The notes beneath the pieces were generated by a model that saw only the letters and a program-made list of their open reading frames with translations, searched no databases and was not told the DNA's origin. The position numbers were made by a program, and so were the translations under genes. Source: Halichondria panicea (lineage: Eukaryota > Porifera > Demospongiae > Suberitida > Halichondriidae). Taken from it: a stretch of DNA of 64,000 nt. The stretch is taken from contig NC_087378.1 in assembly GCF_963675165.1 (NCBI RefSeq), positions 5,389,205 through 5,453,204 of the forward strand, read 5' to 3'. Below are positions 18,303 to 63,977 of this stretch, in pieces (position 1 is the first letter of the stretch; every line of letters begins with the position of its first letter).

Positions 18303-21300
18303 CCTGGAGAAAGTGTCGGAGAAAGTGGTGCGTTGTTGAGAGCTGCCCATCCTCAACTACATGGAGTTTTCAGGGTGCGTGAGTTATAATTATATGAAAG
18401 TACTTTGTCTATTGTATAATGACTGTAAAAGTGCATGTGACATCATTATTCGGTTGTTGACAAGTGTACTAACTATAAGCCGGCTATGAGTTCAGTCCAA
18501 GCCTGTACAGAATGCTAGCATTATACATGCATAGCAGCCTTGTAGAAGCAGATTCACATCTTATGATTTTTATAGGCTGGAGAAGGTATCATTGAGAGTG
18601 GTACGTTGTTGAGAGAAACACATTACGCTCATTCTCAACCAGATGGAGTTCTCAGGGTGAGTTATAAAAAAGGACTGTAGGAGTGTAATATCATTATTCG
18701 ATTGTTGAAAGCGTACTATCAAGAGTTCATTAGGAAGAGTACACAACTCCAATAGACTGTACACAAAAGGCGTTCCGTCTGAGCTACGTCACAGATACTC
18801 ACTGTTGTAACCGAGGAAAGGCAATGAATAAAACTATGTTATTCATTACTGGCATGCAGTTGTAAATGATAGTGATAGCATCACAATCATCACTATGTTG
18901 TTATCATTGCAAATTTGATTTCACATTTATACAACAGCATGTGGTTGTGACATAGGTTGGAAGAAACGCCCACTACAGTTTTAAGTGAAGTTGCGTACTC
19001 TTCCTAATGAACTCTTGGTACTATATAAACCATGTGTTCAGTCCAAGCCTTTGTACAGAAGTATAGTATTTTACATATAATTATGGCAGCCTCAACAAAC
19101 TGATTGTTGTAAAACATTATAATATCGCATTTTGTTTCGTAGGCTGGAGAAGGTTTCGGTGGAAGTGGTGCGTTGTCAACAGAAAGACACTCCGCTTATC
19201 CTCAACCAGATGGAGTTCTTAGGGTGAGTTACATACAAAAGTACTTCTTTTACTGTAACGACTGCAGGAGTGCATATGACATCATTATTCGGTTGTAGAC
19301 GAGTGTACTATAAGCCGGCTGCCCAAGCCTTTGTACAGCATTATACATGTATGGAAGCCTCAACAAACTGATTGTTCTAGTAGCAGAGTAATGTAACATT
19401 ATATTTTGTAGGCTGGAGAAGATGTCAGTGGAAGTGGTGCGTTGTGGAGAGAAAAGCATTACGCCCATTCTCAACCAGATGGAGTTCTGAGAGTGAGTTA
19501 TAAAAAAGAACTGTAAGAGTGTGATAATTATCATTATTCGATTGTCGAAAGTGTACTCTATGAACCATGTGTTCAGTCCAAGCTTTTACAGAATTATAGC
19601 ATTTTACATAATTATAGTTATGGCAGCCTCAACAAACTGATTGAATTATAATAGCAAGCATTTCTTTGTAGGCTGGAGAAGATTTCAGTGGAAGTGGTCC
19701 GTTGTCGACAGAAAGACACTACGCCCATCCTCAACCAGATGGAGTTCTCAGAGTGCGTTATATACGAAAGTGCTTCGTCTAGTGTTTTTAACTATAATGA
19801 CTGCATGTAGGAGTGTGACATCATTATTCGGTTGATGTGACAAGTATAAAGTGTATTACGTACTCTAAGCCATGAGTTCAGTGGTACAGAATGATACGTA
19901 TAAGCAGCCTCTATATGTAGTAGCAATAGTAGCAGCATGCAATAATAGCAGCAGTAATAATTTCATTTTTTAGCCTGGAGAAGTTGTCGATGGAAGTGGT
20001 GCGTTGTCGAAAGAAAGACACTCCGCTTATCCTCAACCAGATGCAGTTCTCAGGGTGAGTTACATACGAAAGTACTTCTTTTACTATAACGACTGTATAG
20101 GAGTGCATGTGACATCATTATTCGATTGTAGACGTGTGTACTATAAGCCGGCTGTCCAAGCCTTTGTACAGAATCATAGCATTATACATGTATGGAAACC
20201 TCAACAAACTGATTGTTCTAGTAGCAGAAGTAATGTCACATCTTTGTAGGCTGGAGAAGATGTCAGTGGAAGTGGTGCGTTGTGGACAGAAAAACATTAC
20301 GCCCATTCTCAACCAGATGGAGTTCTCAGAGTGAGTTATAAAAAAGGACTGTAAGAGTGTGACATCATTATTTGATTGTTGAAAGTGTACTCTATAAACC
20401 GTGTGTTTAGTCCAAGCTTTTGTACAGAATTACTTATAATTATGGTAGCTATAGCCTGATTAATAATAGCAACAGTAAGCATTTCCTTTTGTGTAGGCTG
20501 GAGAAGGTTTCAGTGGAAGTGGTCCGTTGTCGACAGAAAGACACTACGCCCATCCTCAACCAGATGGAGTTCTCAGAGTGCGTTATGTACGAAAGTGCTT
20601 CGTCTAGTGGTTTTAATTATAATGACTGGATGCAGGAGTGTGACATTATTATTCGGTTGATGTGACAAGTATAAAGTGTATTACTCTAAGCCATGAGTTC
20701 AGTGGTACAGAATGATATGTATAGCAACCTCTATATAGTAGCAGCAGTAATAATGTCATTTTTTTAGCCTGGAGAAGGTGTCTATGGAAGTGGTGCGTTG
20801 TCGAAAGAAAGACACTCCGCCTATCCTCAACTAGACGGAGTTCTCAGGGTGAGTTATATACGAACTACTTCGGTTTAGTGGTTTTTACTGTAACAACTGT
20901 AGGAGTGTGACATCATTATTTGGTTGATGACAAGTGTAAATACTCTAAGCCATGGGTTCAGTCCATTTAAGCGTTTGTACAAAATGATAGCGTTTTAGGC
21001 AGCGTCCGACAATCTGATTTTTGTATATACGTTGTAACAGTAATATCGAATTTTCTTTTGTAGGCTGGAGAAGGTTTCAGTGGAAGTGGTCTGTTGTCGA
21101 CAAAAAGGCACTCCGCCTATCCTCAACCAGATGGAGTTCTCAGGGTAAGTTATATACGAAAGTATATTGATTTTACTATAATGAATGTAGGAGTGTATTA
21201 TTCGGTTGTTGACCAGTGTACTCTAAGCCGGCTATGAGTTCAGTCTAAACTTCTGTACATGTATCGGAGCCTCAACAAATTGATTGTTGTGGTAGCAGCA

Positions 21301-21977
21301 GTAATGTCACATCTTATTTTTGTAGGTTGAAGAAAGTGTCAGTGGAAGTGGTCCGATGTCGAAAGAAAGACACTCCGCCTGTCCTCAACCAGATGGAGTT
21401 CTCAGAGTGCGTTACACGAAAGTACTTTGTCTGGTGTTTTTACTACATGTATAATGACTGCATGTAGGAGTGTTACAGTATTATTTGTTTGAGGACAAGT
21501 GTAACTCTTTAAGCCATGCATGAGTTCAGTCCAAGTCTTTGTACATCTTGATAGAATTTTCATGGCAGCCTCAACAAACTGATTGTTGAATATAGTAGCA
21601 GCAGTAATGTCTTACGTTGTAGCCTGGAGAAGGTGTCGGTGGAAGTGGTGCGTTGTCGAAAGAAAGACACTCCCCCCATTCTCAACCAGATGGAGTTCTC
21701 AGGGTGAGTTATATACTTCGTCTAGTATTATGATTATAGGAGTGTGACATCATTATTCGGTTGACGACAAGAGTTAGTGGTAAAGTGTATTATACTCTAA
21801 GCCATGGCCAAACCTTTGTACAGAATGGTGCATTTTACATGTATGGCAGCCTAAAAAAAACTATATAATTATATAGTTGCATGTCATATTTTGTAGCCTG
21901 GAGAAGGTGCCAGTGGAAGTGGTGCGTTGTCGAGAGAAAGACACTCCGCCCATCCTCAACGAGATGGAGTTCTCAGG
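18303..21977 (+). CDS. 27-residue repeat micro-exon array, segment 1 (13 exons)
   Basis: Exons 18303-18374 (72 nt), 18576-18656, 19143-19223, 19412-19492, 19672-19752, 19974-20054, 20250-20330, 20497-20577, 20768-20848, 21064-21144, 21326-21406, 21623-21703, 21897-21977. Apart from the first, all are 81 nt, phase 0 at both ends, preceded by a pyrimidine-rich tract plus AG and followed by GTGAGT, GTGCGT or GTAAGT. The unit starts [APV][GE]E[GSDV], has a GSG core and ends QPDGVLR. The first two copies are the most diverged (24 residues, PGESVGESGALLRAAH; then AGEGIIESGTLLRETH), as expected at the edge of a tandem array. A three-exon super-unit is visible: exons 19412, 19672 and 19974 pair with 20250, 20497 and 20768. 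Function is unknown; it is low-complexity, probably disordered and, if joined to the coiled coil, cytoplasmic. Confidence 0.75.
18719..19018. mobile_element. MITE with about 34-bp inverted repeats in array intron
   Basis: The left end TCAAGAGTTCATTAGGAAGA is mirrored by the right end TCTTCCTAATGAACTCTTGG, with TA on both sides. Neighbouring array introns (for example 19540-19580) continue straight through this position, so it is an insertion into a repeat unit. It explains the unusually long 18657-19142 intron. Confidence 0.6.
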
Positions 21978-23452
21978 GTGAGTTATATACATTATTCATT
22001 ATTCGGTTGATAACAAGTGTAAAGTGTACTACTCTAAGCCATGTACAGAGTTTTGCAAAAAATCCTTGCAACAGGGCTAAACAGACACTGCAATGACTTC
22101 TGCTGACTATAATATTTTGTGTACATGTATTTTGTGTACATGTATATGCAGCATACAGGGATATAATTATGATTATCCCCCTCTGGCTCCAATTCCCCCC
22201 CCTCCCTCCCTAACATATGCATTCAGGTACTCAGTCGTAAGACTGAGTGTCCATAGCCGGCAGGGTATTGATAACTGTTGACCTTTTTTAAATGTTTTGG
22301 TGACTTTTCAAAATCCTGTATGACATCCTGGTATGTGTATAATTATTTGAATTGAAAGATGTCCAGAGAGCATCAGCTCATAAGGTTGTAAGCATTCATA
22401 AGGTTGATAAACAAAACACCCTCCAAACAGTGGTATTGGCTGATATTGATAAGCTTGAAGACAGAAGGCCTGCCCCTTAGGCCTTATAATTATTGTAACC
22501 AATTTCTTTTTGTCAGCTCCTGTCTCATCAATATTTCAGGATTACCATTTCTGTTTTATCAGATCTGAGTCTACTCACCTGGATGCCATAGCACTGCATT
22601 TACAGTATGGATAGCCACCGGCCAGGTTTTAATATTGGCATATTTTGTTGTTTAAGCTTCGTTGTCGAATAAAAGTGAGCAAAAGCGAACTTGCACGTTG
22701 GCAGTAGCTAACTACTGCGGCCTTTATTTGAGGTATATTACGTATTTACAGCTGAAGTAATCCCGTACCAGGAACAATGGAACTGAGTCACTAAAGTAGA
22801 TGGCTAGTTTAGCTTGTCCTAGCCCCAGAGCATACTCCACAGGAGCCATACATCATTTCTAAGGTTTAAGGTTACGGTTACGGTAAACAGTTTGCTCATG
22901 AATTAATATTCATTTTGTGAAACTATAAATGCCATGAAAGAAGTTTGAAGCACATAATGATAAATATATTAGTGTATGATTCTGTATGAGAAGGTATCGA
23001 TCGAGTCTTTAAAACATCTTTCAGTGAAGCTCTGAGCGATCATCAAGTTTACTAGAAACAACACAAACTAGGTCATTTTAAACTTCCAAAAACACTTCTA
23101 TAGCTCTGTGTTCTTGCTCTTATACGATGCTTCTTACCATTCTAGAGGGCAACTCGAAGCGATTTTTCTTTCCAGGCCAATTTATAAACTCTCACAAAAT
23201 AATAAATATGTAGACTAACCTTAAAATGGCGGTCAGAGCCAAGGAAAACAGCCTCTTGTGAGCTTTCAGTAGCCTTTTTCGAAATATCTCTTCGAGTCGC
23301 CCTGCATAATAATATTATTACTGTACCTATAAGCTATCTAGTAACATGTATATTCGAGCCATGAAATGACTACTGCATTTCAGCTGGACTACCAGATCAT
23401 TCTAGCTGCTCATGATCACATAGTAGCAGCCGTTATGTCATATTGTTTGTAG
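21978..23452. other. Break in the micro-exon ladder
   Basis: After the donor at 21978, only about the first 70 bases resemble array intron. The rest is a C-rich run (cccccccctccctccc, 22195-22210), the dispersed repeat and unassigned AT-rich DNA up to the next acceptor at 23452. No intact 81-nt exon is present. Confidence 0.6.
22565..22865. repeat. Dispersed repeat, copy 1
   Basis: About 300 bp sharing blocks in order with 24807-25128: cacctggatgccatagca, aagcttcgttgtcgaataaa, gaacttgcacgttgg, and ccaggaacaatgg. It interrupts the micro-exon ladder, which explains the gap 21978-23452. No inverted termini or ORF were recognised. Confidence 0.6.
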
Positions 23453-26400
23453 CCTGGAGAAAGTGTCAGTGGAAGTGGTGCGTTGTCGAAAAAAATACAC
23501 TCCACCCATTCTCAACCAGATGGAGTTCTCAGGGTGAGTTATATACAGAACTTCTTTGCCTAGTGGTTTTCACTATAATGACTGCATATATATAAGGGGT
23601 GTGACATCATTATTGTATTAATGACAAGTGTAAAGTTTTTACTCTAAGCCATGGGCTTTGTACAGCATTTTATATGTATGGTATTGTCAACCAACTATTA
23701 GTTGTATTTATAGTAGCAGCAGTAATGTCATAATTATTTGTTTGTAGCCTGGAGAAGGTGTCGGTGGAAGTGGTGCGTTGTCGAAAGAAAGACACTCGTC
23801 CCATTCTCAACCAGATGGAGTTCTCAGAGTGCGTTATGTACGAAACTATTGTCTAGTGTTCTACTATAGTGACTGCATGTATAGGAGTGTGACATCATTA
23901 TTCGGTTGATGACAAGTGTAAAAGCAATGAGTTCAGTCCAAGCTTTTGTAGAATGGTAGCATTTTAAATGTTTGGAAGCCTCTACGAACTGATTGTTGTA
24001 TACATGCATCAGTATTATAGTATTTTCTTTTGTAGGCTGGAGAAGGTTTCAGTGGAAGTGGTCCGTTGTCAGGTGAAAGACATTTCGCCAATCCTCAATC
24101 AGATGGAGTTCTCAGAGTGCGTTATAATCACTGCATGTATAATTATAGCTAGGGGTGTGACATCATTATTAATGACAAGTGTAAAGTGAATTTTACCATG
24201 AATTCAGTCCAATTAAGCCTTTATACAGAATGATAGCATTTTATATGAATGGCAGCCTCAACAAACTGTTATAGTAGCAGCAGTAATGTCATATTTTTTG
24301 CAGCTTGGAGAAGGTGCCAGTGGAAGTGGTGCGTTGTCAAGAGAAAGACACTCTCCCCATTCTCAACCAGATGGAGTTCTCAGGGTGAGTGTATACTTTG
24401 TCTATAGTGTTTTTACTACCGTATAGCGCGAAATTTTCGAATGGCCTCTGAAACTATTAATTTGGTTGCATATGTTTGTGGGATAACTGCTTATACCGGA
24501 AGCCACCTCTTTAATCTTTTCACGTTATAGCAGATAATTCTAGCAATTTTCGTGGACTTAATTTTCATGTAGCCCCTTGAAAGCAGCAAAATTAAGCACC
24601 TCGAAAATTTCACGCTATACGGTATAATGAATGACTGTATAAAAATATGACATCATCATTCAGTTGATTACGTGTATTTCCATGGATTCGGTCCAAACCT
24701 TTGTACTAAATTATAGCATTTTACATGTATGGCAAATCTGATTGTTGTTACTCGAGGTGTGTGGGCCCCTACTGGTCGTTTGGTTTGTTTGTTTGTAATT
24801 TGTGAGTCTGTTTACCTGGATGCCATAGCAGTGCGTTTACAGCATGGATAGAGCCAGCCTTCACACTACAAAGTATTCGTAATAGTAGAATTAAAGCTTC
24901 GTTGTCGAATAAAAGGTAAGAAGCTTGAACTTGCACGTTGGCTGCATGGCCTCTAGCTACCACGCGTCCTTTGTTTGAGGTATACATGTATACGTATTTA
25001 CAGGTGAAGTGATCTTGTACCAGGAACAATGGAAAAGAGTAATAAAATTATGATGGATTGTCACTTCTTTGCTTATCCCTGGCCCTAGCCCCAGAACATA
25101 TCAGGAGCCATAATTATTTCTAAAGACTTCTTTGCTGACCATGCAGACTTTGCTGTGATCCTATCACAGTGCATGTCTCATCCATACTAAAGCTCCGTTC
25201 TCAAAAGTTGCAGTATTCCTCTAGAGTCTAGAATTTCATTCCTCGATTATGTTACTTTCTACTTAGCCAGCTTCAATGCTTAATTCATACATTTAATCAT
25301 AGATATAGTAGAAAGAGACTACTATTTCTACTATCTATGATTAATTTTTAATAAACAGCCGAGGGTTGCACTTCAGTGCTCTAGTATAGTAGCAGCAGTA
25401 CAGTGGAACCTCCGGAATACTTTGGGAGCAGAGCTTTTGTCCTATGTTCAGACATTGTCCTCTGGTAGGAATCAAGAAGATCTGCTTGTGATAGGTTGCT
25501 TTTGTGTACTTGGATAGTGATTGCCATAGCTATAGTGGCTTTATAAAGAGCTCCGTTATGGGAGGGTCCACTGTAATATCAAATTTTCTTTTGTATAGGC
25601 TGGCGAAGGTTTCAGTGGAAGTAGTCCGTTGTCTAGAGAAAGACACTCTGCCCATCGTCAACCAGATGGAGTTTTCAGAGTGCGTTGTATACGAAAGTAG
25701 TTTGTCTAGTGGTTTTACTATAATAACTTTATGTAGGAGTGTGACATCATTATTCGTTTGATGACAACTGTAAAGTGTATTACTCTAAGCCATGCATGAG
25801 TTCAGTCGTACAGAACGATAGCATTTTACATTTATAGCAGCCTGATTGTTATAATTATACAGTAGCGGCAATAATATCGAATTTTCTTTTATAGGTTGGA
25901 GAAGGTTTCAGTGGAAACAGTCCGTTATCAGATGAAAGACACTCCACCAATCCTCAAGCAGATGGAGTTCTCAGAGTGCGTTATTTTTTTACGAAACTTC
26001 TTCGTCTAGTGGTTTTCACTAGAATGACTGCATGTGTATAGGGGTGTGACATCATTAATTTTGTTTAATAACAAAGTGCATGTATTGCCATGTGTTCATT
26101 CCAAGCCTTTATACTGAACGATAGCATTTTACATGTATGGCAGCCTCAAGAAACTGATTGTTGTGTATAGTAGCAACAGTAATGTCATATTTTGTGTAGC
26201 CTGAAGAAAGTGTCAGTGGAAGTGGTGCGTTGTCGAAAGAAAGACACTCCCCCCATTCTCAACCAGATGGAGTTCTCAGAGTGAGTTATATACAAAACTA
26301 CTTCGTCTAGTTGTTTTTACTACCTTAAAGGTGACATATTTTCAGAGGTATATTTGTCTGCGATTTCATTTTTTAGCTCATTTTGCTGGTATTAAATCTG

Positions 26401-27966
26401 CTAAATTCTGCTCAAGGTGTGAAATGAATGTAGCGTTTATATTTACTCGCAAGTGGTTTTAATGAGTTCATTGCATTTTCTAATATCTGCGAGTACACAT
26501 TTTTGTGATTTTACTCTCATTCACAGAAATAGCTGAAATTATTACACGCGAAAATATGTTACCTTTAAGGCATACTGACTGCGTGTAGGAGTGTGAAAAT
26601 AATTATTGTCAGTATTCGGTTTTGACAAGTGCACTCAGAACCATTCGTTCAGTTTACAGAATGATAGCAGCATTTTAAAAATGAAAAGATCACTAGTTGT
26701 AGCATAAATTATAGTGCAGCAGTATAATGTCATATTTTTATAGCCTGGAGAAGGTGTCATTGGAAGTGGTCCGTTGTCAGGTGAAAGACACTCGTCCCAT
26801 TCTCAACCAGATGGAGTTCTCAGAGTGCGTTATAATCACTGCATGTACATATGGGGTGTGACATCATTATTCTGTTAATGACAAGTGTAAAGCGTATTTT
26901 ACTCAAGTCATGAGTTTAGTCCAAGCTTTTGTACTGAATGATAGTATATTACATGAATGGCAGCCTCAGCAAACTGATTGCTGTATATAGTAGCAAAAGT
27001 AATGTCACATTTTTTTGTAGCCTAGAGAAAGTGTTGGTGGAAGTGGTGCGTTGTCGAAAGAAAGACACTCCCCCCATTCTCAACCAGATGGAGTTCTCAG
27101 GGTGAGTTATATACTTCGTCTAGTATAATGATTATACGAGTGTGACATCATTATTCGGTTGACGACAAGTGTAAAGTGTATGAGCCATGAAATCAGTTCA
27201 AATCTTCGCATACAGAATGATAGCATTTCATTGAAGCCTCTATATAAAACTGATTGTTGTGTATATAATAGCAGCAGTGTTATCGCATTTTCTTTTGTAG
27301 GCTGAAGAAGGTTTCAGTGGAAATAATCTGCTGTCAGGTGAAAGACACTCCGCCAATCCTCAAGCAGTCAAGGTTCTCAGAGTACGTTATAATAATTATA
27401 ATAATAAGTGATGCGTCTAAGTAGTTTTTACTATAATAACTTCATGTATAATTATAGGGGCATTATTCTGTTAATGACAAGTATAAAGCGTATTTTACTC
27501 TAAGCCATGGATTCAGTCCAAGCCTTCGTACAGAATGATAGCATTTTACATGTATGTATGGCAGCCTCAACAATAATGTATAGTAGCTATAGTAATGTCA
27601 TGTTTTTGTTTGTAGCCTGGAGAAAGTGTCGGTGGAAGTGGTGCGTTGTCGAAAGAAAGACACTCCCCCCATTCTCAACCAGATGGAGTTCTCAGGGTGA
27701 GTTATACGAAATAAAGTACTTCGTCTACTCATTTTTACTATAATTTGTAAGAGTCTCACATCATTACAAATCTAAACTGTGCTCTAAGCCATGAGTTCAG
27801 TCCAAGCGTGTTTAGAGAATGATAGCATTTGGTATGGCAGCCTCAACAAACTGATTGTTGTATATTGTAGCATCAGTAATTTCATATATTGTTATAGCCT
27901 GGAGAAGGTTCCAGTGTAAGTGGTGCATTGTACTCAGCCCATCCTCAACCAGATGGAAATCTCAGG
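23453..27966 (+). CDS. 27-residue repeat micro-exon array, segment 2 (12 exons)
   Basis: Exons 23453-23533, 23748-23828, 24036-24116, 24304-24384, 25599-25679, 25895-25975, 26200-26280, 26744-26824, 27021-27101, 27301-27381, 27616-27696 and 27898-27966. All are 81 nt except the last (69 nt, exactly four codons shorter). No stop occurs in frame. Two flavours mix: AGEGFSGSGPLS...NPQ and PGEGVGGSGALSKERHSPHSQ. Exon 27301-27381 is the most altered (AEEGFSGNNLLS, ending QAVKVLR) but still open. The spacing between exons is disturbed by inserted elements at 24419-24622, 25401-25573 and 26323-26570 and by the dispersed repeat at 24807-25128. The last exon leads in phase 0 into cassette exon B at 28201. 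Confidence 0.75.
24419..24622. mobile_element. CCGTATAGCG-family MITE
   Basis: The 5' end CCGTATAGCGCGAAATTTTC is mirrored by the 3' end GAAAATTTCACGCTATACGG, and TA flanks both sides. Sister introns read ttttactataatgactg without it, giving a TA target duplication. It is an intronic insertion between micro-exons 24304 and 25599. Confidence 0.7.
24807..25128. repeat. Dispersed repeat, copy 2
   Basis: Direct-orientation partner of 22565-22865, with similarity in several blocks and diverged stretches between. The element family is unknown. It lies in the enlarged intron 24385-25598 together with two MITEs. Confidence 0.6.
25292..25344. repeat. Near-perfect hairpin
   Basis: ttaatcatagatatagtaga pairs with tctactatctatgattaa around a short loop. 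It lies in the intron 24385-25598. It may be an element end or a simple foldback; no function is seen. Confidence 0.5.
25401..25573. mobile_element. pogo/Tigger-like MITE
   Basis: CAGTGGAACCTCCGG at the left and GGAGGGTCCACTG at the right, flanked by TA. Removing it restores gtagcagcagtaatatc, the normal sequence of the array intron just before a micro-exon acceptor. It has the same family signature as 17822-17979. Confidence 0.65.
26323..26570. mobile_element. CCTTAAAGG-type MITE in array intron
   Basis: The terminal inverted repeats are about 21 bp with one mismatch (CCTTAAAGGTGACATATTTT against AAAATATGTTACCTTTAAGG). It is inserted after ttttacta, the same spot in the array intron as the 24419 element, with TA on the left; the right flank is CATA. 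No ORF. Confidence 0.65.
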
Positions 27967-28200: not shown

Positions 28201-29077
28201 GCTGGACTCTCAATGCCAAGAAATACCGCCAGTCAGTCTCAAGCCAAAATCACATCTTCCCAATTGGATGCCCCACAATCCAACACTGAACATGGAGATG
28301 AAACCGGTTCTGGGGATGACACTGGTTCTGAGAGTGATACGGATTACACAAAAATTGCACCTTCGGAGGTTTCCAAACGTTTACATGAGCATCCTGAGCA
28401 AATCAATGAAGCCCCAATGGATCAGCATCACAAACGGCGTACTCGCCGACTCTTGGGCAAGGAAGACAAGACAGGCGATACCCCAGCACAATACCAGTCA
28501 CGCCAGTCCACACACAAGAAAGATCAAAGTAGACGAGATGGCCGCGGTAAACGGAAAGGAGAACAGCTCCTCGAGAGTAAGGTGACTGATTCACCCCTGC
28601 TGCAGGCTGACCCCAACCGCAGAAAGAAGAGGTAAGAGTGCTTGGTGTATTTCGTGATTTAAGGTCAATGCATAGAATGTATTTTATCGAGTATAGTTCC
28701 TATCGTGTATCATAACTGTTCTTGTATATCATATATTGTCCCTTGTTATGGATTGACAGAAACTGTTTTGTGTTTGTTGTTGCAGAGGAGACAAGTTGAA
28801 AGCCCGTGGACTTGATCCAAAGGAAATAAGTGAAGCTGCTGGAGATAACATATCTCCGAAAATCATAAATCATCTGCTCAGTGAAAACAAACTACAAGCA
28901 ATGAAACCTAAACCTTCCAATGATTCCAGAACCAGCAACAAACTTGTTGACGATAATGACCTGCCCCCAAGCACTCCCGCTGCTTCACCATTGAACGTTC
29001 CCACAGTAACCCACACGAGCAAAGGAGGAGGGGCTCACCAACTGCATGATGAGAGAAACAAGAACATCACTACCAGG
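28201..29077 (+). CDS. B+C cassette 1 (type I, diverged)
   Basis: Exon B is 28201-28631 (431 nt, phase 0 in, phase 2 out) and exon C is 28786-29077 (292 nt, ends phase 0). B begins AGLSMPRN and carries an acidic Ser/Thr/Asp/Glu tract (about residues 30-50, GSGDDTGSESD). Basic clusters follow: KRRTRR, then a KK/RR/KRK stretch, then RRKKR at the very end. These resemble nuclear-localisation or RNA/acidic-partner binding patches, but no known domain is recognised. C begins GDKLKARGLDPKEISEAAG, probably helical to about residue 35, followed by a Pro/Ser/Thr-rich tail ending NKNITTR. This copy lacks the RY dipeptide present in other B exons (SRQST instead of SRYRQSP). It is the first of 12 cassettes. 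Confidence 0.7.
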
Positions 29078-46000: not shown

Positions 46001-46034
46001 CTACCCCCATTTTCAACCAGAGGGCGTTCCTAAT
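43027..46034 (+). CDS. 27-residue repeat micro-exon array, segment 5 (12 exons)
   Basis: Exons 43027-43107, 43302-43382, 43577-43657, 43841-43921, 44118-44198, 44382-44462, 44602-44682, 44872-44952, 45138-45218, 45430-45510, 45692-45772 and 45954-46034, all 81 nt. The PGKDASGSGALSKEKRS subtype appears three times (43302, 43577, 44118), so a local tandem duplication of one or two units happened here. Donors at 43922 (GTAAAT) and 44683 (GTGATT) are weaker than the usual GTGAGT. The last exon ends QPEGVPN, a variant of the pre-type-I subtype. Confidence 0.75.
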
Positions 46035-52500: not shown

Positions 52501-52607
52501 CAGCAGTAATGTCGCATTTTTTGTAGCCTGGAGAAGATGTCAGTGGAAGTGGTGCGTTGTCGAGAGAAAGACACTACCCCCATTTTCAACCAGAGGGCGT
52601 TCTTAAT
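49569..52607 (+). CDS. 27-residue repeat micro-exon array, segment 6 (12 exons)
   Basis: Exons 49569-49649, 49844-49924, 50283-50363, 50551-50631, 50771-50851, 51042-51113 (72 nt), 51255-51335, 51514-51594, 51778-51858, 52041-52121, 52263-52343 and 52527-52607. Exon 51042-51113 has lost exactly three codons (reads KERHSQPDEVLK). An inverted-repeat element at 49937-50143 splits the intron after 49924. Exon 52263 has a rare Cys (GSCALSK). The array ends with the HYPHFQPEGVLN subtype. Confidence 0.75.
49937..50143. mobile_element. CCGTATAGCGG-family MITE with verified empty site
   Basis: The ends are CCGTATAGCGGGTAATTTT and AAAATTACCAGCTATACGG. The interrupted intron reads ...gttataTA|element|TActttgtc; the intact paralogous introns at 36667 and 43658 read gttatatactttgtc. 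This shows a TA target-site duplication directly, as for Tc1/mariner-type elements. Confidence 0.75.
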
Positions 52608-52867: not shown

Positions 52868-53742
52868 GCTGGACTTTCAATGCCAACAAACACCCTCAGT
52901 CAGTCTCAAGACGAAATCACTCCTCCCCATTTGGATGCCCCACAATCCAACACTGAACATGGAGATGAAACGGGTTCTGGGGATGACACTGATTCTGAGA
53001 GTGATACGGATTACACAAAAGTAGCATCTTCGGAGGTTTCCAAACGTTTACATGAGCATCCCGAACAAATCAATGAAGCCCCAATGGATCAGCATCACAA
53101 ACGGCGTACTCGCCGACTCTTGGGCAAGGAAGACAAGACAGGCGATACCCCAGCACAATATCAGTCACGCTATCGCCAGTCCCCACACAAGAAAGATCGG
53201 AGCAGACGAGATGGCCGCAGTAAACGAAAAGGAGAACAGCTCCTTGACAGTAAGGTGACTGATTCACCCCTGTTGCAGGCTAACGCCAACCACAAAAAGA
53301 AGAGGTAAGATCTGATGTGTACCTGGTGTATTTCGTGATTTAAGGTCAATGCATAGAATGTATTTTATCGAGTATAGTTCCTACCGTATATCGTATATTA
53401 TTGTCCCTTGTTATGGATTGACAGAAGCTGTTTTGTGTTTGTTGTTGCAGAGGAGACAAGTTGAAAGCCCGTGGACTTGATCCAAAGAAAATAAGTGAAG
53501 CTGCTGGAGATGACACATCTCCGAAAATCATAGATCGTCTGCTCACTGAAAACAAACAACAAGCAATGAAACCTAAACCTTCCAATGATTCCCGAACCAG
53601 CAACAAACTTGTTGACGATAATGACCTGCCCCCAAGCACTCCCGCTGCTTCACCATTGAACGTTCCCACAGTAACCCACACGAGCAAAGGAGGAGGGGCT
53701 CACCAACTGCATGATGAGAGAAACAAGAACATCACTACCAGA
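52868..53742 (+). CDS. B+C cassette 8 (type I)
   Basis: Exon B is 52868-53304 (437 nt, ends NANHKKKR) and exon C is 53451-53742 (292 nt, ends TTR with donor GTGAGT). B shares the ANxKKKR ending with cassette 6 but has a full-length C. It lies 6,570 bp downstream of cassette 6. Confidence 0.75.
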
Positions 53743-54406
53743 GTGAGTGCTTTTATTATTGTTCAGAAGAGCCGTCAATCTCCCTGTAAAAGTTGACTTT
53801 TGTATGACCGTGGGAGCACCAAGTTGAGCAGTTTCTTGCAAGTTTCAGCATCAATATGACTCGAGGCGTAGCCTCATGAGGAATACAGAAGCTTAACTGT
53901 GTATGTATTCCAGCTGATAGCTGCTCAACGTTTACATTGCCATGGCAAACAGCTGTTATAGGCTTCTATATAGCCACATTTTTGTAGTACATGCAGTGAA
54001 GGCTGTTGCCTCTTCAAAATGGTTTGTGGCATCATCTGTGTGCACAAATTTCATTTAAACAGCTGCAAAGCTGTGTATATGGCCAGAAACAGCAGCCGTT
54101 GTGAATTCTGACCGCAAAGTCTTTGCAGATATGTATGCGAAATTATCGAGCTTAATTTTCACTGTTTTCGTGGGTTAGCAATACTCTACGAAATGTAACA
54201 GAAGACACAATTTCAAGTAGATTCAACGAAATGCTTTTAGAGGCCACTTCATGAAATTTAAGAGCCTCACACATTTCAGGCCTTTTTTCGTTTTTAATTT
54301 TTCTTAATTGACAGGAATTGCACATTACTAAACTTCTATCGTCATAGATCTAAGCTTCCCTTGTTCAACTTCTGTTTCCATTAAGGTCATATTGTGTTTT
54401 GTATAG

Positions 54407-55878
54407 CCTGGAGAAGGTGCCAGTGGAAGTGGTGCGTTGTCGAAAGAAAGACACTCCCCCCATTCTCAACCAGATGGAGTTCTCACGGTGAGTTATATAC
54501 TTCATCTAGAATACTTACTGTAGGAGCGTGACATCATTGTTCGATTGATGATACATGTATGTGTAAAGTGCACGTATTATACTTTAAGCCATGGGTTCAG
54601 TTCAATCCAAATGATAGCAGTTTGTATGGCAGCCTCAACGAACTGAGTGCTGTAAATAGTAGCAGCATTAATGTCACATGTTTTTTAGCCTGGAGAAGGT
54701 GTTGGTGGAAGTGATACGTCCCCCCATTCTCAACCCGAAGGAATTCTTAATGTGAGTTATAATTATGCGAAAGTACTTGTAGGCTCAATTCTGCTGAAGT
54801 CCACTGATTTTATCCGGTATAATTATGTATTATATACATATCGAAAAAAGTCGGATACGCATCGTTCAATTATAGTGGCCATGTCTCACCCACTACACTC
54901 GTTGGGTTCGCATTACAACTAACTAATCTACTACATCAACTCTATAACTACTTATAGTTCTAGATTTTCCATACATTTGCATGGGGCTTCTTATTTTGTG
55001 AAGAACATAATTATGTTATTCATTTTCGTCCGTATTCAGGTTGGACTCTCAATGCCAAGAAACGCCCTCAGTCAGTCTCAAGACAAAATCACATCTCCCC
55101 ATTTGAATGCCCCACAATCCAACACTGAACATGGAGATGAAACGGGTTCTGGGGATGACACTGATTCTGAGAGTGATACGGATTACACAAAAGTAGCATC
55201 TTCGGAGGATTCCAAACGTTTACAAGATGAATCCCCACTGGATCAGCATCGCAAACGGCGTACTCGTCGACTCTTGGGCAAGGAAGACAAGACAGGCAAT
55301 ACCCCAGCACAATACCAGTCACGCTATCGCCAGTCCCCACACAAGAAAGATCGGAGCAGACGAGATGGCCGCAGTAAACGGAAAGGAGAACAGCTCCTCG
55401 ACAGTAATGTGACTGATTCACCCCTGCTGCAGGCTGACCCCAACCGCAGAAAGAAGAGGTAAGAACTGATTTGTGCCTGGTGTATTTCGTGATTTAAGGT
55501 CAATGCATAGAATGTATTTTATCGAGTATAGTGCCTACCGTATATCGTATGTTGTCCCTTGTTATGGATTGACAGAAGCTGTTTTGTGTTTTTTGTTGCA
55601 GAGAAGACAAGTTGAAAGCCCGTGGACTTGATCCAAAGGAAATAAGTGAGGCTGCTGGAAATGACACATCTCCGAAAATCATAGATCGTCTGCTCAGTGA
55701 AAACAAACAACAAGCAATGAAACCTAAACCTTCCAATGATTCCAGAACCAGCAACAATGACCTGCCCCCAAGCACTCCCGCTGCTTCACCATTGAACGTT
55801 CCCACAGTAACCCACACGAGCAAAGGAGGAGGGGCTCACCAACTGCATGATGAGAGAAACAAGAACATCACTACCAGG
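54407..55878 (+). CDS. Linker micro-exon pair plus B+C cassette 9 (type II)
   Basis: Micro-exons 54407-54487 (81 nt) and 54689-54751 (63 nt, GSDTSPHSQPEGILN), exon B 55040-55458 (419 nt, begins VGLSMPRN) and exon C 55602-55878 (277 nt). C has lost five codons (the KLVDD segment: SRTSNNDLPP), again without breaking the frame. The empty Helitron target site is at about 54932-54946. Confidence 0.75.
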
Positions 55879-56479
55879 GTGAGTGGTTTTATTATTGTTC
55901 AGAAGAGCCGTCAATCTCCCTGTAAAAGTTGACTTTTGTATGACCGTGGGAGCGCTAAGTTGAGCAGTTTCTTACAAGTTTCAGTATTATTATGACTCGA
56001 GGCGTAGCCTCATGAGGAATACAGAAACTTAACTGTGTATGTGTGAATGTGTGTGTGTATTCCAGCTGATTAGCTGCTCAACGCTTACATTGCCACAGCA
56101 AACAGCTTTTATATAGCCACATTTTTGTAGTACATGCAGTGAAGGCTGTTGCCTCTTCAAAATGGTTTGTGGCATAAACAGCAGCCATTGTGAATTCTGA
56201 CCTTAAAGTCTTTGCAGATATGTATGCGTATAACGCCAAATTATCGAGGGGCTTAATGTTCGCTGTTTTCGTGGGTTAGCAAATGTAACAGAAGACACAA
56301 TTTCAAGTAGATTCAACGAAATGCTTTTAGAGGCCATTTAAGAGCCTCACACATTTGAGGCCTTTTTTCGTAATAATATTGACAGGAATTGCACATTACT
56401 AAACTTCTATCGTCATATAGATCTAAGCTTCCCTTGTTCAACTTCTGTTTCCATTAAGGTCATGTTGTGTTTTGTATAG

Positions 56480-57928
56480 CCTGGAGAAGGTGCCAGTGGA
56501 AGTGGTGCGTTGTCGAAAGAAAGACTCACCCCCCATTCTCAAACAGATGGAGTTCTCATGGTGAGTTATATACTTCATCTAGAATACTTACTGTAGGAGC
56601 GTGACATCATTGTTCGATTGATGATACATGTATGTGTAAAGTGCACGTATTATACTTTAAGCCATGGGTTCAGTTCAATCCAAATGATAGCAGTTTGTAT
56701 GGCTGTAAATAGTAGCAGCATTAATGTCACATGTTTTTTAGCCTGGAGAAGGTGTCGGTGGAAGTGATACGTCCCCCCATTCTCAACCCGAAGGAATTCT
56801 TAATGTGAGTTATAATATTATTATGCGAAAGTACTTGTAGGCTCAATTCTGCTGAAGTCCACTGATTTTATCCAGTATAATTATGTATTATATACATATC
56901 GAAAAAAGTCGGATACGCATCGTTTAATTAGTGGCCATGTCTCACCCACTACACTCGTTGGGTTCGCATTACAACTAACTAATCTACTACATCAACTCTA
57001 TAACTACTTATAGTTCTAGATGTTCCATACATTTGCATGGGGCTTCTTATTTTGTGAAGAACATAATTATGTTATTCATTTTCGTCCGTATTCAGGTTGG
57101 ACTCTCAATGCCAAGAAACGCCCTCAGTCAGTCTCAAGACAAAATCACATCTTCCCATTTGAATGCCCCACAATCCAACACTGAACATGGAGATGAAACG
57201 GGTTCTGGGGATGACACTGATTCTGAGAGTGGTACGGATTACACAAAAGTAGCATCTTCGGAGGATTCCAAACGTTTACAAGATGAATCCCCACTGGATC
57301 AGCATCGCAAACGGCGTACTCGTCGACTCTTGGGCAAGGAAGACAAGACAGGCAATACCCCAGCACAATACCAGTCACGCTATCGCCAGTCCCCACACAA
57401 GAAAGATCGGAGCAGACGAGATGGCCGCAGTAAACGGAAAGGAGAACAGCTCCTCGACAGTAATGTGACTGATTCACCCCTGCTGCAGGCTGACCCCAAC
57501 CGCAGAAAGAAGAGGTAAGAACTGATTTGTGCTTGGTGTATTTCGTGATTTAAGGTCAATGCATAGAATGTATTTTATCGAGTATAGTGCCTACCGTATA
57601 TCGTATGTTGTCCCTTGTTATGGATTGACAGAAGCTGTTTTGTGTTTTTTGTTGCAGAGAAGACAAGTTGAAAGCCCGTGGACTTGATCCAAAGGAAATA
57701 AGTGAGGCTGCTGGAAATGACACATCTCTCAGTGAAAACAAACGACAAGCAATGAAACCTAAACCTTCCAATGATTCCAGAACCAGCAACAAACTTGTTG
57801 ACGATAATGACCTGCCCCCAAGCACTCCCGCTGCTTCAACATTGAACGTTCCCACAGTAACCCACACGAGCAAAGGAGGAGGGGCTCACCAACTGCATGA
57901 TGAGAGAAACAAGAACATCACTACCAGG
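56480..57928 (+). CDS. Linker micro-exon pair plus B+C cassette 10 (type II)
   Basis: Micro-exons 56480-56560 (81 nt, ends TDGVLM) and 56742-56804 (63 nt), exon B 57096-57514 (419 nt) and exon C 57658-57928 (271 nt). C has lost seven codons at DTSPKIIDRLLSE (reads DTSLSENK), removing part of the predicted helix. This is the first of three extra type II half-units with a period of about 2.06-2.13 kb that lack the long micro-exon array and the type I cassette. Confidence 0.72.
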
Positions 57929-58592
57929 GTGAGTGGTTTTATTATTGTTCAGAAGAGCCGTCAATCTCCCTGTAAAAGTTGACTTTTGTATGACCGTGGG
58001 AGCACCAAGTTGAGCAGTTTTTTACAAGTTTCAGCATTGTTATGACTCGAGGCGTAGCCTCATGAGGAATACAGAAACTTAATTGTGTATGTGTGTATGT
58101 GTGTGTGTATTCCAGCTGATTAACTGCTCAACGCTTACATTGCCACGGCAAACAGCTTTTATATAGCCACATTTTTGTAGTACATGCAGTGAAGGCTGTT
58201 GCCTCTTCAAAATGGTTCGTGGCATCATCTGTGTGCACAAATTTCATTTAAACAGCTGCAAAGCTGTGTATATGGCCAGAAACAGTAGCCATTGTGAATT
58301 CTGATCTCAAAGTCTTTGCAGATATGTATGCGTATAACGCCAAATTATCTAGGGGCTTAATTTTCGCTGTTTTCGTGGGTTAGCAAATGTAACAGAAGAC
58401 ACAATTTCAAGTAGATTCAACGAAATGCTTTTAGAAGCCATTTCATGAAATTTAAGAGCCTCACACATTTCAGGCCTTTTTTGTAATAATATATTGACAG
58501 AAATTGCACATTACTAAACTTCTATCGTCATAGATCTAAGCTTCCCTTGTTCAACTTCTGTTTCCATTAAGGTCATATTGTGTTTTGTATAG

Positions 58593-60079
58593 CCTGGAGA
58601 AGGTGCCAGTGGAAGTGGTGCGTTGTCGAAAGAAAGACACTCCCCCCATTCTCAACCAGATGGAGTTCTCACGGTGAGTTATATACTTCATCTAGAATAC
58701 TAACTGTAGGAGCGTGACATCATTGTTCGATTGATGATACATGTATGTGTAAAGTGCACGTATTATACTTTAAGCCATGGGTTCAGTTCAATCCAAATGA
58801 TAGCAGTTTGTATGGCAGCCTCAACGAACTGAGTGCTGTAAATAGTAGCAGCATTAATGTCACATGTTTTTTAGCCTGGAGAAGGTGTCGGTGGAAGTGG
58901 TGCGTCCCCCCATTCTCAACCCGAAGGAATTCTTAATGTGAGTTATAATTATGCGAAAGTACTTGTAGGCTCAATTCTGCTGAAGTCCACTGATTTTATC
59001 CGGTATAATTATGTATTATATACATATCAAAAAAGTCGGATACGCATCGTTCAATTATAGTGGCCATGTCTCACTCACCCACTACACTCGTTGGGTTCGC
59101 ATTACAACTAACTAATGTACTACATCAACTCTATAACTACTTATAGTTTTAGATGTTCCATACATTTGCATGGGGCTTCTTATTTTGTGAAGAACATAAT
59201 TATGTTATTCATTTTCGTCCGTATTCAGGCTGGACTCTCAATGCCAAGAAACGCCCTCAGTCAGTCTCAGGACAAAATCACATCTCCCCATTTGAATGCC
59301 CCACAATCCAACACTGAACATGGAGATGAAACGGGTTTTGGGGATGACACTGATTCTGAGAGTGATACGGATTACACAAAAGTAGCATCTTCGGAGGATT
59401 CCAAACGTTTACAAGATGAATCTCCAATGGATCAGCATCACAAACGGCGTACTCGCCGACTCTTGGGCAAGGAAGACAAGACAGGCGATACCCCAGCACA
59501 ATACCAGTCACGCTATCAGTCCCCACACAAGAAAGATCGGAGCAGACGAGATGGCCGCAGTAAACGGAAAGGAGAACAGCTCCTCGACAGTAATGTGACT
59601 GATTCACCCCTGCTGCAGGCTGACCCCAACCGCAGAAAGAAGAGGTAAGAACTGATTTGTGCCTGGTGTATTTCGTGATTTAAGGTCAATGCATAGAATG
59701 TATTTTATCGAGTATAGTGCCTACCGTATATCGTATATTGTCCCTTGTTATGGATTGACAGAAGCTGTTTTGTGTTTTTTGTTGCAGAGAAGACAAGTTG
59801 AAAGCCCGTGGACTTGATCCAAAGGAAATAAATGAAGCTGCTGGAGATGACACATCTCCGAAAATCATAGATCGTCTGCTCAGTGAAAACAAACAACAAG
59901 CAATGAAACCTAAACCTTTCAATGATTCCAGAACCAGCAACAAACTTGTTGACGATAATGACCTGCCCCCAAGCACTCCCGCTGCTTCACCATTGAACGT
60001 TCCCACAGTAACCCACACGAGCAAAGGAGGAGGAGCTCACCAACTGCATGATGAGAGAAACAAGAACATCACTACCAGG
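58593..60079 (+). CDS. Linker micro-exon pair plus B+C cassette 11 (type II)
   Basis: Micro-exons 58593-58673 (81 nt) and 58875-58937 (63 nt), exon B 59229-59644 (416 nt) and exon C 59788-60079 (292 nt). B is one codon shorter than other type II copies (SRYQSPHKK instead of SRYRQSPHKK). The intron before B contains the closest match to the pre-insertion Helitron site (aatgtactacatcaactc, around 59114-59131). Confidence 0.75.
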
Positions 60080-60735
60080 GTGAGTGCTTTTATTATTGTT
60101 CAGAAGAGCCGTCAATCTCCCTGTAAAAGTTGACTTTTGTATGACCGTGGGAGCACCAAGTTGAGCAGTTTCTTTACAAGTTTCAGCATTGTTATGACTC
60201 GAGACGTAGCCTTATGAGGAATACAGAAACTTAACTGTGTATGTGTGTATGTGTGTGTGTGTACTCCAGCTGAGATTAACTGCTCAACGCTTATATTGCC
60301 ACAGCAAAACAGCTTTTATATAGCTACATTTTTGTAGTACATGCAGTGAAGGCTGTTGCCTCTTCAAATGGTTCGTGGCATCATCTGTGTGCACACATTT
60401 CATTTAAACAGCTGCAAAGCTGTGTATATGGCCAACAGTAGCCATTGTGAATTCTGATCTCAAAGTCTTTGCAGATATGTATGCGTATAACGCCAAATTA
60501 TCGAGGGGCTTAATTTTCGCTGTTTTCGTGGGTTAGCAAATGTAACAGAAGACACAATCTCAAGTAGATTCAACGAAATGCTTTTAGAGGCCATTTCATG
60601 AAATTTAAGAGCCTTACACATTTCAGGCCTTTTTTTGTAATAATATTGACAGAAGTTGCACATTACTAAACTTCTATCGTCATAGATATAAGTTCAACTT
60701 CTGTTTCCATTAAGGTCATATTGTGTTTTGTATAG

Positions 60736-62199
60736 CTTGGAGAAGGTGCCAGTGGAAGTGGTGCGTTGTCAAAAGAAAGACACTCCCCCCATTCTCAACC
60801 AGATGGAGTTCTCACGGTGAGTTATATACTTCATCTAGAATACTTACTGTAGGAGCGTGACATCATTGTTCGATTGATGATACATGTATGTGTAAAGTGC
60901 ACGTATTATACTGTAAGCCATGGGTTCAGTTCAATCCAAATGATAGCAGTTTGTATGGCAGCCTCAACAAACCGAGTGCTGTAAAAGTAGCAGCATTAAT
61001 GTCACATGTTTTTTAGCCTGGAGACGGTGTCGGTGGAAGTGGTGCGTCCCCCCATTCTCAACCCGAAGGAATTCTTAATGTGAGTTATAATTATGCGAAA
61101 GTACTTGTAGGCTCAATTCTGCTGAAGTCCACTGATTTTATCATGTATTATATACATATCGAAAAAGTCGGATACGCATCGTTCAATTAGTGGCCATGTC
61201 TCACCCAATACACTCGTTGGGTTCGCATTACAACTAACTAATCTACTACATCAACTCTATAACTGCTTATAGTTCTAGATGTTCCATACATTTGCATGGG
61301 GCTTCTTATTTTGTGAAGAACATAATTATGTTATTCATTTTCGTCCGTATTCAGGCTGGACTCTCAATTCCAAGAAACGCCCTCAGTCAGTCTCAAGACA
61401 AAATCGCATCTCCCCATTTGAATTCCCCACAATCCAACACTGAACATGGAGATGAAACGGGTTCTGGGGATGACACTGATTCTGAGAGTGATACGGATTA
61501 CACAAAAGTAGCATCTTCAGAGGATTCCAAACGTTTACAAGATGAATCCCCAATGGATCAGCATCACAAACGGCGTACTCGCCGACTCTTGGGCAAGGAA
61601 GACAAGACAGGCGATACCCCAGCACAATATCAGTCACGCTATCGCCAGTCCCCACACAAGAAAGATCGGAGCAGACGAGATGGCCGCAGTAAACGAAAAG
61701 GAGAACAGCTCCTCGACAGTGTGACTGATTCACCCCTGCTGCAGGCTGACGCCAACCGCAGAAAGAAGAGGTAAGAACTGATTTGTACCTGGTATATTTC
61801 CTAATTTAAGGTCAATGCATAGAATGTATTTTGTCGAGTATAGTGCCTACCGTATATCGTATATTATTGTCCCTTGTTATGGATTGACAGAAGCTGTTTT
61901 GTGTTTGTTGTTGCAGAGGAGACAAGTTGAAAGCCCGTGGACTTGATCCAAAGGAAATAAGTGAAGCTGCTGGAGATGACACATCTCCGAAAATCATAGA
62001 TCGTCTGCTCAGTGAAAACAAACAACAAGCAAACCTTCCTAAACCTTCCAGAACCAGCAACAAACTTGTTGACGATAATGACCTGTCCCCAAGCATTCCC
62101 GCTGCTTCACCATTTAACATTCCCACAGTAACCCACACGAGCAAAGGAGGAGGAGCTCAGCAACTGCATGATGAGAGAAAGAAGAACATCACTACCGGG
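60736..62199 (+). CDS. Linker micro-exon pair plus B+C cassette 12 (type II B, shortened C)
   Basis: Micro-exons 60736-60816 (81 nt) and 61017-61079 (63 nt, PGDGVGGSGAS), exon B 61355-61770 (416 nt) and exon C 61917-62199 (283 nt). B lacks one codon at LLDSVTD and ends ADANRRKKR. C carries the same three-codon loss and DLSPS change as cassette 6. This is the last cassette in the window. Confidence 0.75.
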
Positions 62200-62820
62200 G
62201 TGAGTGCTTTTATTATTGTTCTCAGAAGAGCCATCAATCTCCTCGTAAAAGTTGACTTTTGTATGACCGTGGGAGCGCCAAGTTGAGTAGTTTTTTAGTT
62301 TCAGCATGGTGTAGTCGTACGAGGAATAAGTAAATCTGACTGTGTGTGTATATACCTACTGATTACTAACTAAATGCTCATCGCTTACATTGCAACAGAA
62401 ACTATAGTGCTTCTATCTATAGGCTTCTATAAACCACATTCTTTCGTTCATGGATTTACTTATTTCTCGAGTTATGGGTACAGTAGAGGCTACAGTAAGG
62501 TTTGTTGCAGTCTCTTCGTAGCACCATTAACTTTATCTGATCTGCACAAAAAGTTCTATGCAAAGCTGCTCTGCCAAAAACAGCAGCCATTGCAGATCTT
62601 ATGTTTTTAATTGACGGGAAAATACACACTACTAAACTCATACATCGATGCTTCTCTCCTTTAATTTATTTTTCCAGTTTATTCCTCTTCCTCAACACTC
62701 TAATACGTTGTTGACAGAAGCAAAACATGCCTCGAGGCATTAAGTATTTAGGTGCTTATGATTTTATATGTTTGGCAGCCTAGATTGTTAGCAGCAGTAA
62801 TGTCACATCTTCTTTTGTAG
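62200..62820. other. Intron between last cassette and segment 7
   Basis: A diverged relative of the post-cassette intron (tgattactaactaaatgctcatcgcttacattgc in outline), followed by ordinary array-intron sequence (tttggcagcc...gtagcagcag-type end). No additional exon is seen. Confidence 0.5.
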
Positions 62821-63977
62821 ACTGGAGAAGGTGTCAGGGGAAGTGGTGCGTTGTCGAGAGAAAATGATTCCACCCGTCCTCAATCAGATGGAGTTCTCAG
62901 GGTGAGTTATATACGAAATCACTTATAGGAGTGTAACGTCATTATTCGGTGACAAGCGTACACTGTATTAATTACTCTAAGCCATGGTTGCCAGGAGCGT
63001 AGCCAGACTTTTGAGACAAGCCTTTGTACAGTTTACATGTATTGCAGCTTTAACAAACTGAGTTTCTAGTAGCTAGCTGTAATGCCATAAATTTTCAGAT
63101 TGAAGAAGGTGTCAGGGGAAGTGGTGCGCTGTCGAGAGAAAGAGACTCCGCCCATCCTCAACCAGATGGAGTTCTCAGGGTGAGTTATATTATACGAAAG
63201 GACCTATAGTCTTTGTTTGAAGTCATTATTCGGTGCATGACAATTGTTGCATTGCCATAGAATAGATAAGAGTATCTACTCTTAGTTCAGTGGAAGCCTT
63301 TCAACCTTTGCATGAATGGGCACCTCCACAACTAGTTATAGCAGCAGTAATGTCATATATTATTTTGTAGACTGGAGAAGGTGTCAGGGGAAGTGGTGCC
63401 TTGTCAAGAGAAAGACACTCCCCCCGTCCTCAATCAGAGAGGGTTATCAGGGTAAGTTATTTACAAATTACTTACATGTAGTTTAGTGATTCTGAAGTGT
63501 AACATCATTATTTGGTGACAGCGTACTGTATTACTCTAAGCCATGGGTGCAGTCCAAGCAGTAGCATTTTACATGTATGACAGCTAGTCTCAACATAATT
63601 CTGATTGTTGTCGTAGCAGCAGTAATATCACATTTTCGATTGTAGGCTAGTGAAGGTGTCAGAGGAAGTGGTGCATTATCGAGAGAAAGAGATTCCACGC
63701 ATCCTCTACAAGATGCAGTTTTCAGAGTAAGATACTTATAATGACTGTAGGAGTATGACATCAGTATTTGGTTGACAATAAAGTGTATTATGAAGTCTAA
63801 GCTATGGGTTCAGTCCAAGCCTTTGTATAGTTTACATGTATGACAACTTCAACAAACTGAGTTTGTAGTAGCAGTTGTAATGCCACGAACTTTCAGGTTG
63901 AAGAAGGTGTCAGGGGAACTGGTGCGTTGTCGATAGAAAGAGACTCCGCCTACCCTCAACCAGATGGAGTTCTCAGG
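62821..63977 (+). CDS. 27-residue repeat micro-exon array, segment 7 (5 exons, continues past window)
   Basis: Exons 62821-62901, 63099-63179, 63371-63451, 63646-63726 and 63897-63977, all 81 nt, phase 0. They are the most diverged group on the 3' side (TGEGVRGSGALSREN, then IEEGVRGSGALSRERD, ASEGVRG, VEEGVRGTG). They return to the VLR ending and GGTGAGT donor context of segment 1. Array edges diverged and centre homogenised is the classic result of unequal crossing-over. The gene is still open at the end of the window, so the C-terminus is unknown. Confidence 0.75.

Follow-up and report, generated by a model that had tools for sequence, protein, structure and literature searches.

A tandem array of 115 frame-neutral micro-exons, predicted to form the tail of a giant membrane receptor in the sponge Halichondria panicea

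In this report, we describe a tandem array of micro-exons in the demosponge Halichondria panicea, which probably encodes the C-terminal tail of one giant single-pass membrane receptor and would serve there as a length-adjustable linker or scaffold. The array begins in a stretch of 64,000 nucleotides (nt) of contig C2 (bases 5389205-5453204 of NC_087378.1; hereafter the window), in a genome of 131 Mb and 39 contigs. It is made of copies of a micro-exon coding for a 27-residue motif (A exons), among which longer, paired exons (B and C) are found. Summed from our exon models, the predicted gene spans about 149 kb, comprises some 300 exons, and codes for about 19,700 amino acids (aa), from a start at -63334 to a stop at 86091. 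All coordinates are those of the window, negative numbers lying to its left and numbers above 64000 to its right, and all genome comparisons with A, B-C, coil, and ectodomain queries were made within this one genome.

The protein would start with a signal-peptide-like sequence, followed by two arrays of ectodomain modules, a transmembrane segment, a coiled-coil-like part, and finally the repeat tail, which is presumably cytoplasmic. This tail has grown through tandem duplication, both of single exons with their introns and of larger blocks, and its length and repeat number may be what selection sees. As every unit is frame-neutral, copies could be gained, lost, or skipped in splicing with the frame intact, yielding a tail whose length can change unit by unit, either in evolution or via exon skipping. 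Behind an adhesion-type receptor, such a tail could serve as a multivalent linker or scaffold of great length.

The array of A exons

Within the window, a seed pattern finds 88 A exons, all on the plus strand, the first at 18303 and the last at 63897; the same 88 are recovered by nhmmer with a hidden Markov model of the exon plus its flanks and automatic boundary calling. An earlier reading of the window by eye (the sequence-only reading) had counted 88 micro-exons of 81 nt, with a few of 63, 69, or 72 nt, over 45 kb. Count and sizes hold (81 nt in 78 of the 88, 63 nt in 7, 72 nt in 2, and 69 nt in 1), whereas the extent is valid for the window only: 27 further A exons follow to its right, up to 77515. 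The whole array thus numbers 115 A exons, all on the plus strand (105 of 81 nt, 7 of 63 nt, 2 of 72 nt, and 1 of 69 nt). Beyond 77515, another 4 B-C pairs are followed by a terminal exon that resembles A and runs from 85927 to the stop at 86091. Over the whole array, 75 of 102 A-to-A start distances fall within the 220-300 bp period given earlier, the median being 271.5. An nhmmer fragment at 29998 (E 0.02) and two pieces of the terminal exon were left out before counting. When the A motif was searched at the protein level against the whole genome, at least 94 matches were obtained, every one of them at this locus.

Each A exon had also been said to run from phase 0 to phase 0 with its own acceptor and donor, and so it is in all 115; the donor is GT in 113 and GC in 2 (the exons at 38487 and 65588). 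The initial boundary script preferred frame 0, penalised stops, and sought an AG no more than 4 nt from the expected place, and the ends of the two GC-donor exons were placed by hand. Because of this bias, the boundary test was redone blind to the frame. The best donor was then identical in 113 of the 115 exons (all but the two with GC), and for the acceptor, sought within 15 nt, the best site was identical in all 115. Exactly 81 nt past the acceptor, GT is present in 103 exons of the array and GC in 2 (GT in 77 of the 88 in the window).

An open frame from membrane to stop

From the transmembrane exon at 11527 to the stop at 86091, the predicted exons join into 7,832 aa without a stop, comprising the transmembrane exon, 18 cytoplasmic exons, 115 A exons, 16 B exons, 16 C exons, and the terminal exon. 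The A exons, the 16 B-C pairs, and the terminal exon make up a tail of about 6,950 residues, of which the 147 internal exons are kept open. The A exons thus fit one frame of one gene and form its predicted C-terminal tail, as the sequence-only reading had it.

The A array is not a matter of chance. None of the 115 A exons carries a stop in frame 0, whereas stops occur in 16 and 64 of 115 when the two other sense frames are read, in 35, 104, and 114 of 115 in the antisense frames, and in 89-110 of 115 intron 81-mers (three offsets, three frames). Neutral drift of the 105 A exons of 81 nt would be expected to leave 10-14 stops per 327-436 inferred changes, and 0 are observed; B and C, for which 6.6 and 2.7 stops are expected, have 0 as well. 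Moreover, the length differences among A exons (81, 72, 69, and 63 nt), among B exons, and among C exons are all multiples of three, whereas intron indels are divisible by three in 126 of 599 cases (84 pair alignments). Taken together, the zero stops, the multiple-of-three lengths, and the single frame of 7,832 aa make the prediction that the array is coding very strong.

A non-coding satellite or dead array that merely resembles exons is strongly disfavoured and hardly credible: although omega near 1 and the joint duplication of exons and introns would suit it, it leaves unexplained the 0 stops where 10-14 are expected, the exclusively frame-preserving length changes, the splice sites kept in the frame-blind test, and the in-frame joins to the coil and the terminal stop. 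It also seems very unlikely that two genes are involved, with the receptor ending before 18 kb and the tail belonging to a separate downstream transcript. Nothing positive speaks for this division, no search around 18 kb having been aimed at promoters or polyadenylation sites, and the junction itself argues for continuity: a donor closes the exon at 18043-18091 in phase 0, the phase in which the first A exon starts, and the frame stays open from the transmembrane exon to 86091.

S, G, R, P, and D are abundant in the tail, and W, C, F, and M each stay below 1%; the net charge per residue is 0.004 and the charged fraction 0.29, a composition that suggests a disordered polyampholyte. Summed from the same composition, P, E, V, and K amount to about 25% of the whole tail.

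Selection and growth of the array

Omega and divergence were determined on the 105 A exons of 81 nt, the 10 of other lengths (of 115) being excluded. The mean divergence of the A exons is 0.18, versus 0.35-0.36 for their introns. For A, omega is 1.09-1.13 on two trees and 1.10 on the exon tree, and in three sections of the array it is 1.06, 1.45, and 0.88; B and C have values of 0.91 and 1.01, respectively. As a control from the same gene, nine classes of ectodomain exons (6-8 copies each, exons with a stop or another predicted length excluded) give 0.35-0.81. Pairwise pN/pS among A exons is 1.04 over all pairs and 0.91 over the 84 nearest pairs. A per-codon pass (omega 1.23) indicates codons 6 (P = 1.3e-4), 5, and 18 (both P ~0.005) as fast and codons 3, 8, and 21 (P 0.008-0.017) as slow, all P values being uncorrected over the 27 codons.

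Judged from these sequence comparisons, frame and splice sites are guarded, and the residues of the tail are nearly free to change. A strict frame with near-free residues would favour length, composition, or unit number over a tight binding motif in each copy. Tail length and composition thus seem to matter more than the exact sequence, as in titin PEVK.

The same figures can be read without any function for length: unequal crossing over would change the unit number, and selection would purge only what breaks the frame. Such a neutral expansion is, in our opinion, unlikely. It accommodates the omega of about 1 in A, B, and C, the widely differing sizes and identities of the duplicated blocks, and the fact that the ectodomain arrays of the same gene were duplicated too; the authors of the PEVK study also allow neutral processes (PMC6469411). 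It fits less well with A exons that diverge half as much as their introns, with codons 3, 8, and 21 changing less than expected (uncorrected), and with as many as 147 internal tail exons having been kept open.

The growth by tandem duplication put forward in the sequence-only reading is borne out by a self-comparison, in which exon-plus-intron units as well as larger blocks recur in adjacent copies, offset by 6.7 kb (94% identity), 2.1 kb (91%), 2.09 kb (95%), and 0.8 kb (78%). A doubled assembly is an unlikely source of these duplications, because the block copies differ enough. As a separate observation, an inverted repeat was seen by eye in the A-A intron at 18743-19011; the self-comparison gives two minus-strand matches of at least 200 bp, their places unlisted.

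The B-C exon pairs

The sequence-only reading had described an array of one motif only and overlooked the B-C pairs, of which the locus has 16, with 12 of them in the window, scattered among the runs of A exons. B exons measure 416-476 nt in six lengths and run from phase 0 to phase 2, and C exons measure 271-292 nt in five lengths and run from phase 2 to phase 0. Neither B nor C is divisible by three individually, but a B-C pair taken together leaves the frame unchanged.

The genome search gave one other full B-C pair, on contig C9 (2342684-2343624), where it lies among exons with BRCT matches (BRCT, 5.4e-05, above the cut-off; TopBP1/SLF1 BRCT, 0.003, below it). On either side of the pair, homology between this locus and the array stops no more than about 40 bp from the outer edge. 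Compared with the 16 tail copies, the C9 pair has a pN/pS of 0.60 (B) and 0.72 (C), which is lower than within the tail. Two further stretches are related to these loci. Far from the array, C2:7209500-7209877 holds a rearranged fragment, partly inverted, which is made up of the intron together with the final part of B and the initial part of C. Within an intron of the array, the stretch at 49935-50145 is 89% identical to part of the C9 locus on the opposite strand and is probably a dispersed repeat.

An intron element behind the A exons

Downstream of the A exons, at a median of 45 nt past the donor (e.g., near 18700), the introns contain the element CATCATTATT. It is found exactly in 58 of the 115 A introns and with at most one mismatch in 79, compared with 0 and 1 of 115 in shuffles and 1 and 3 of 115 upstream. 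Within the 90 nt after the exon, none of the 16 B and none of the 16 C exons has it at up to one mismatch. A 10-base block of the element varies less (0.13) than the A exons themselves (0.18), and the element may help the A exons to be included.

An element of this kind could also belong to a menu for alternative splicing. Dscam-type arrays consist of tandem homologous exons in one gene, which encode parts of Ig domains and are chosen in a mutually exclusive way. The A exons are likewise homologous and in tandem within one gene, and if only one or a few of them entered each transcript, diverse short tails would result instead of one long tail. In favour of this rather doubtful option, A exons and B-C pairs are frame-neutral, sections of the array have visibly different A variants (by listing, not clustered), codons 6, 5, and 18 are faster than expected, and CATCATTATT is conserved after most A exons and less variable than they are. 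However, B and C, each not a multiple of three, must travel together, and near-identical neighbouring copies would presumably bring little diversity. In contrast to Dscam, the exons are here complete frame-neutral units of a low-complexity tail.

Ectodomain, membrane segment, and coil

Returning to the favoured reading of a single long tail behind a receptor, the exon at 11527-11763 holds the one clear transmembrane segment, with a Kyte-Doolittle value of 2.99 against 2.0 for the next best in the predicted protein minus its N-terminal exon. The 18 cytoplasmic exons behind it, which were adjusted manually with an eye to the frame, encode 799 aa without stops, rich in E, L, and K and coiled-coil-like by composition. 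A query with the transmembrane and coil part has genome matches at this locus only.

The ectodomain, from -63334 to 11372, is predicted as two tandem arrays of multi-exon modules. At the left end of the gene lies a long open frame whose start MFFLVLLLLANAIPS, at -63334, was recognised by eye as signal-peptide-like. Sequons are enriched in the ectodomain, which has 327 where shuffles give 139 +/- 11. The coil contains none (2.4 expected), and the tail, with 49 versus 38 +/- 6 in shuffles, is little above background. Single-exon queries of the two arrays returned 7 genome matches (a 549-nt exon, of the same module as the 321-nt class) and 5 genome matches, all of them here. AlphaFold2 gave a mean pLDDT of 29 for an ectodomain exon of 182 aa (6 copies), and two ectodomain profiles searched against the PDB at E up to 10 had weak, unconvincing matches (3 chains, best E 0.22; 1 chain, E 0.06).

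Known families and comparable systems

Three variants of the A motif match no Pfam family and no PDB chain at E up to 1, in line with the earlier claim that no named family carries it. The B-C exons likewise have no Pfam family above the cut-off, and the one pair searched in the PDB has no match at E up to 1. No Pfam family lies above the cut-off in the spliced cytoplasmic chain of 1,074 aa or in the ectodomain pieces scanned, which cover the ectodomain in part, and a 347-aa part of the coil has no PDB match at E up to 1. Matches below the cut-off to TetR_C_19, Spt5_N, VGCC_beta4Aa_N, AAA_lid_10, and DUF2939 were set aside. Among the literature matches listed, none describes such an array. Given that neither Pfam at the cut-off nor the PDB has a match for A or B-C, we call the family undescribed. 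The proposal of an undescribed system therefore stands for the family, in the Pfam, PDB, and literature searches made, but not for the kind of architecture, which is known from titin PEVK and from micro-exon genes (MEGs); apparently, then, a new micro-exon family has been built on a known plan.

Titin PEVK, in the spring region of this muscle protein, is the nearest comparison and is flanked by the Ig/FN3 and kinase domains of titin. No titin, Ig, or kinase match was found in the cytoplasmic chain or in the ectodomain pieces scanned, and in the predicted gene the array forms the C-terminal end of a membrane receptor. Human titin PEVK has 113 annotated short exons, the number varies between mammals, and in PEVK-C the expansion and contraction of length dominate over selection on particular exons (PMC6469411). 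The likeness lies in some hundred tandem short exons with a loose motif, here 115 A exons of 63-81 nt. The two differ in composition, as PEVK_Finder by default uses a PEVK ratio of at least 0.54 per exon (PMC6469411), compared with the share of about 25% given above, which applies to the whole tail and not to single exons.

The MEGs of schistosomes have exons of 3-81 bp, mostly multiples of three; they comprise 35 genes, whose secreted products are each encoded by 10-20 very short exons, most of them of 15 bp (PMC10526429). Short exons mostly divisible by three are thus shared, but little else: we are dealing with one giant predicted transmembrane gene of about 300 exons, with 115 copies of one exon of 63-81 nt.

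In its layout, the predicted protein further resembles EVC2/Limbin, which has an ectodomain, one transmembrane segment, and a long coiled-coil cytoplasmic part; here, too, an ectodomain and a single transmembrane segment are followed by a long coiled-coil-like cytoplasmic part. Membership of that family, suggested by the layout, found no support: PF12297 (EVC2_like) gave no match, exon by exon or with the 1,074-aa chain (E up to 10), in a search without a positive control, the 14 control genomes giving no match either. Among the literature matches listed, there is no sponge EVC2.

Weight of the reading and significance

Several points weigh against the receptor-tail reading. With omega near 1 (0.88-1.45 by section), there is no purifying selection on the residues as a whole, which is unusual for a functional repeat, and any gene conversion between the copies would bias the counts made on the trees. 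Open frames were initially preferred in picking both the A boundaries and the 18 cytoplasmic exons, so that for the latter the 7,832-aa frame does not amount to a fully independent test. The ectodomain chain is a rough prediction, trained on few local open frames and with 2 stops at predicted junctions. Finally, the disorder of the tail is judged by its composition only, the inclusion of the A and B-C exons in transcripts is predicted, and the scaffold or linker function is something we infer.

A more specific scenario can be offered tentatively, as a possibility that we hold to be doubtful: on a giant adhesion-type receptor, a PEVK-like disordered tail outside the known muscle systems, selected for length and adjustable by splicing, would have been assembled from an orphan A exon and a B-C block shared with a BRCT-domain gene, with the CATCATTATT-type intron element marking most micro-exons for inclusion.

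If transcribed as predicted, the gene would encode an unusually large membrane receptor of about 19,700 aa and would provide, besides titin, a further case of growth by whole frame-neutral micro-exons. With 115 copies in one genome, it would offer a natural experiment in which strict selection on frame and splice sites goes together with almost free residue change, so that selection on the length of a disordered tail rather than on its sequence would become directly testable. For splicing research, a conserved intron element repeated after most micro-exons could be of use.

Features of the window and neighbouring loci

Table 1. Predicted features within the window
Feature	Position	Strand	Basis
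Ectodomain	1 to ~11.4 kb, extending upstream of the window	+	exon chain
Example of ectodomain-module exon, 321-nt class	1377..1697	+	exon chain; omega 0.40, 6 copies
Exon with single clear transmembrane segment	11527..11763	+	best Kyte-Doolittle window
18 cytoplasmic exons, the last at 18043-18091 with phase-0 end	11819..18091	+	hand-refined exon chain
Run of 25 A exons, first in array	18303..27966	+	boundary calling
B-C pair 1 (B 28201-28631, C 28786-29077)	28201..29077	+	
Run of 9 A exons	30153..32304	+	
B-C pair 2	32566..33437	+	
A pair (81 + 63 nt)	34092..34323	+	
B-C pair 3	35043..35903	+	
Run of 11 A exons; 38487 with GC donor	36311..39020	+	
B-C pair 4	39282..40153	+	
A pair (81 + 63 nt)	40808..41039	+	
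B-C pair 5	41759..42619	+	
Run of 12 A exons	43027..46034	+	
B-C pair 6	46298..47160	+	
A pair (81 + 63 nt)	47826..48055	+	
B-C pair 7	48313..49166	+	
Run of 12 A exons	49569..52607	+	
Five B-C pairs (B at 52868, 55040, 57096, 59229, 61355), an A pair (81 + 63 nt) between neighbours	52868..62199	+	
Final 5 A exons within the window	62821..63977	+	

The left neighbour of the predicted gene is a phosphoacetylglucosamine mutase gene (Pfam AMG1_III, 1.2e-54), and on the right the terminal exon is followed by a gene that matches the DNA-repair metallo-beta-lactamase family (DRMBL, 4e-05, above the cut-off). Further to the right, at 108436-110815, an open frame was identified by eye only as resembling a reverse transcriptase. 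Elsewhere in the genome, C1:5280527-5280718 contains a nuclear fragment similar to COX1, with two TGA codons; read by eye with TGA as Trp, it resembles the mitochondrial COX1 of animals, and it probably derives from mitochondrial DNA copied into the nucleus.

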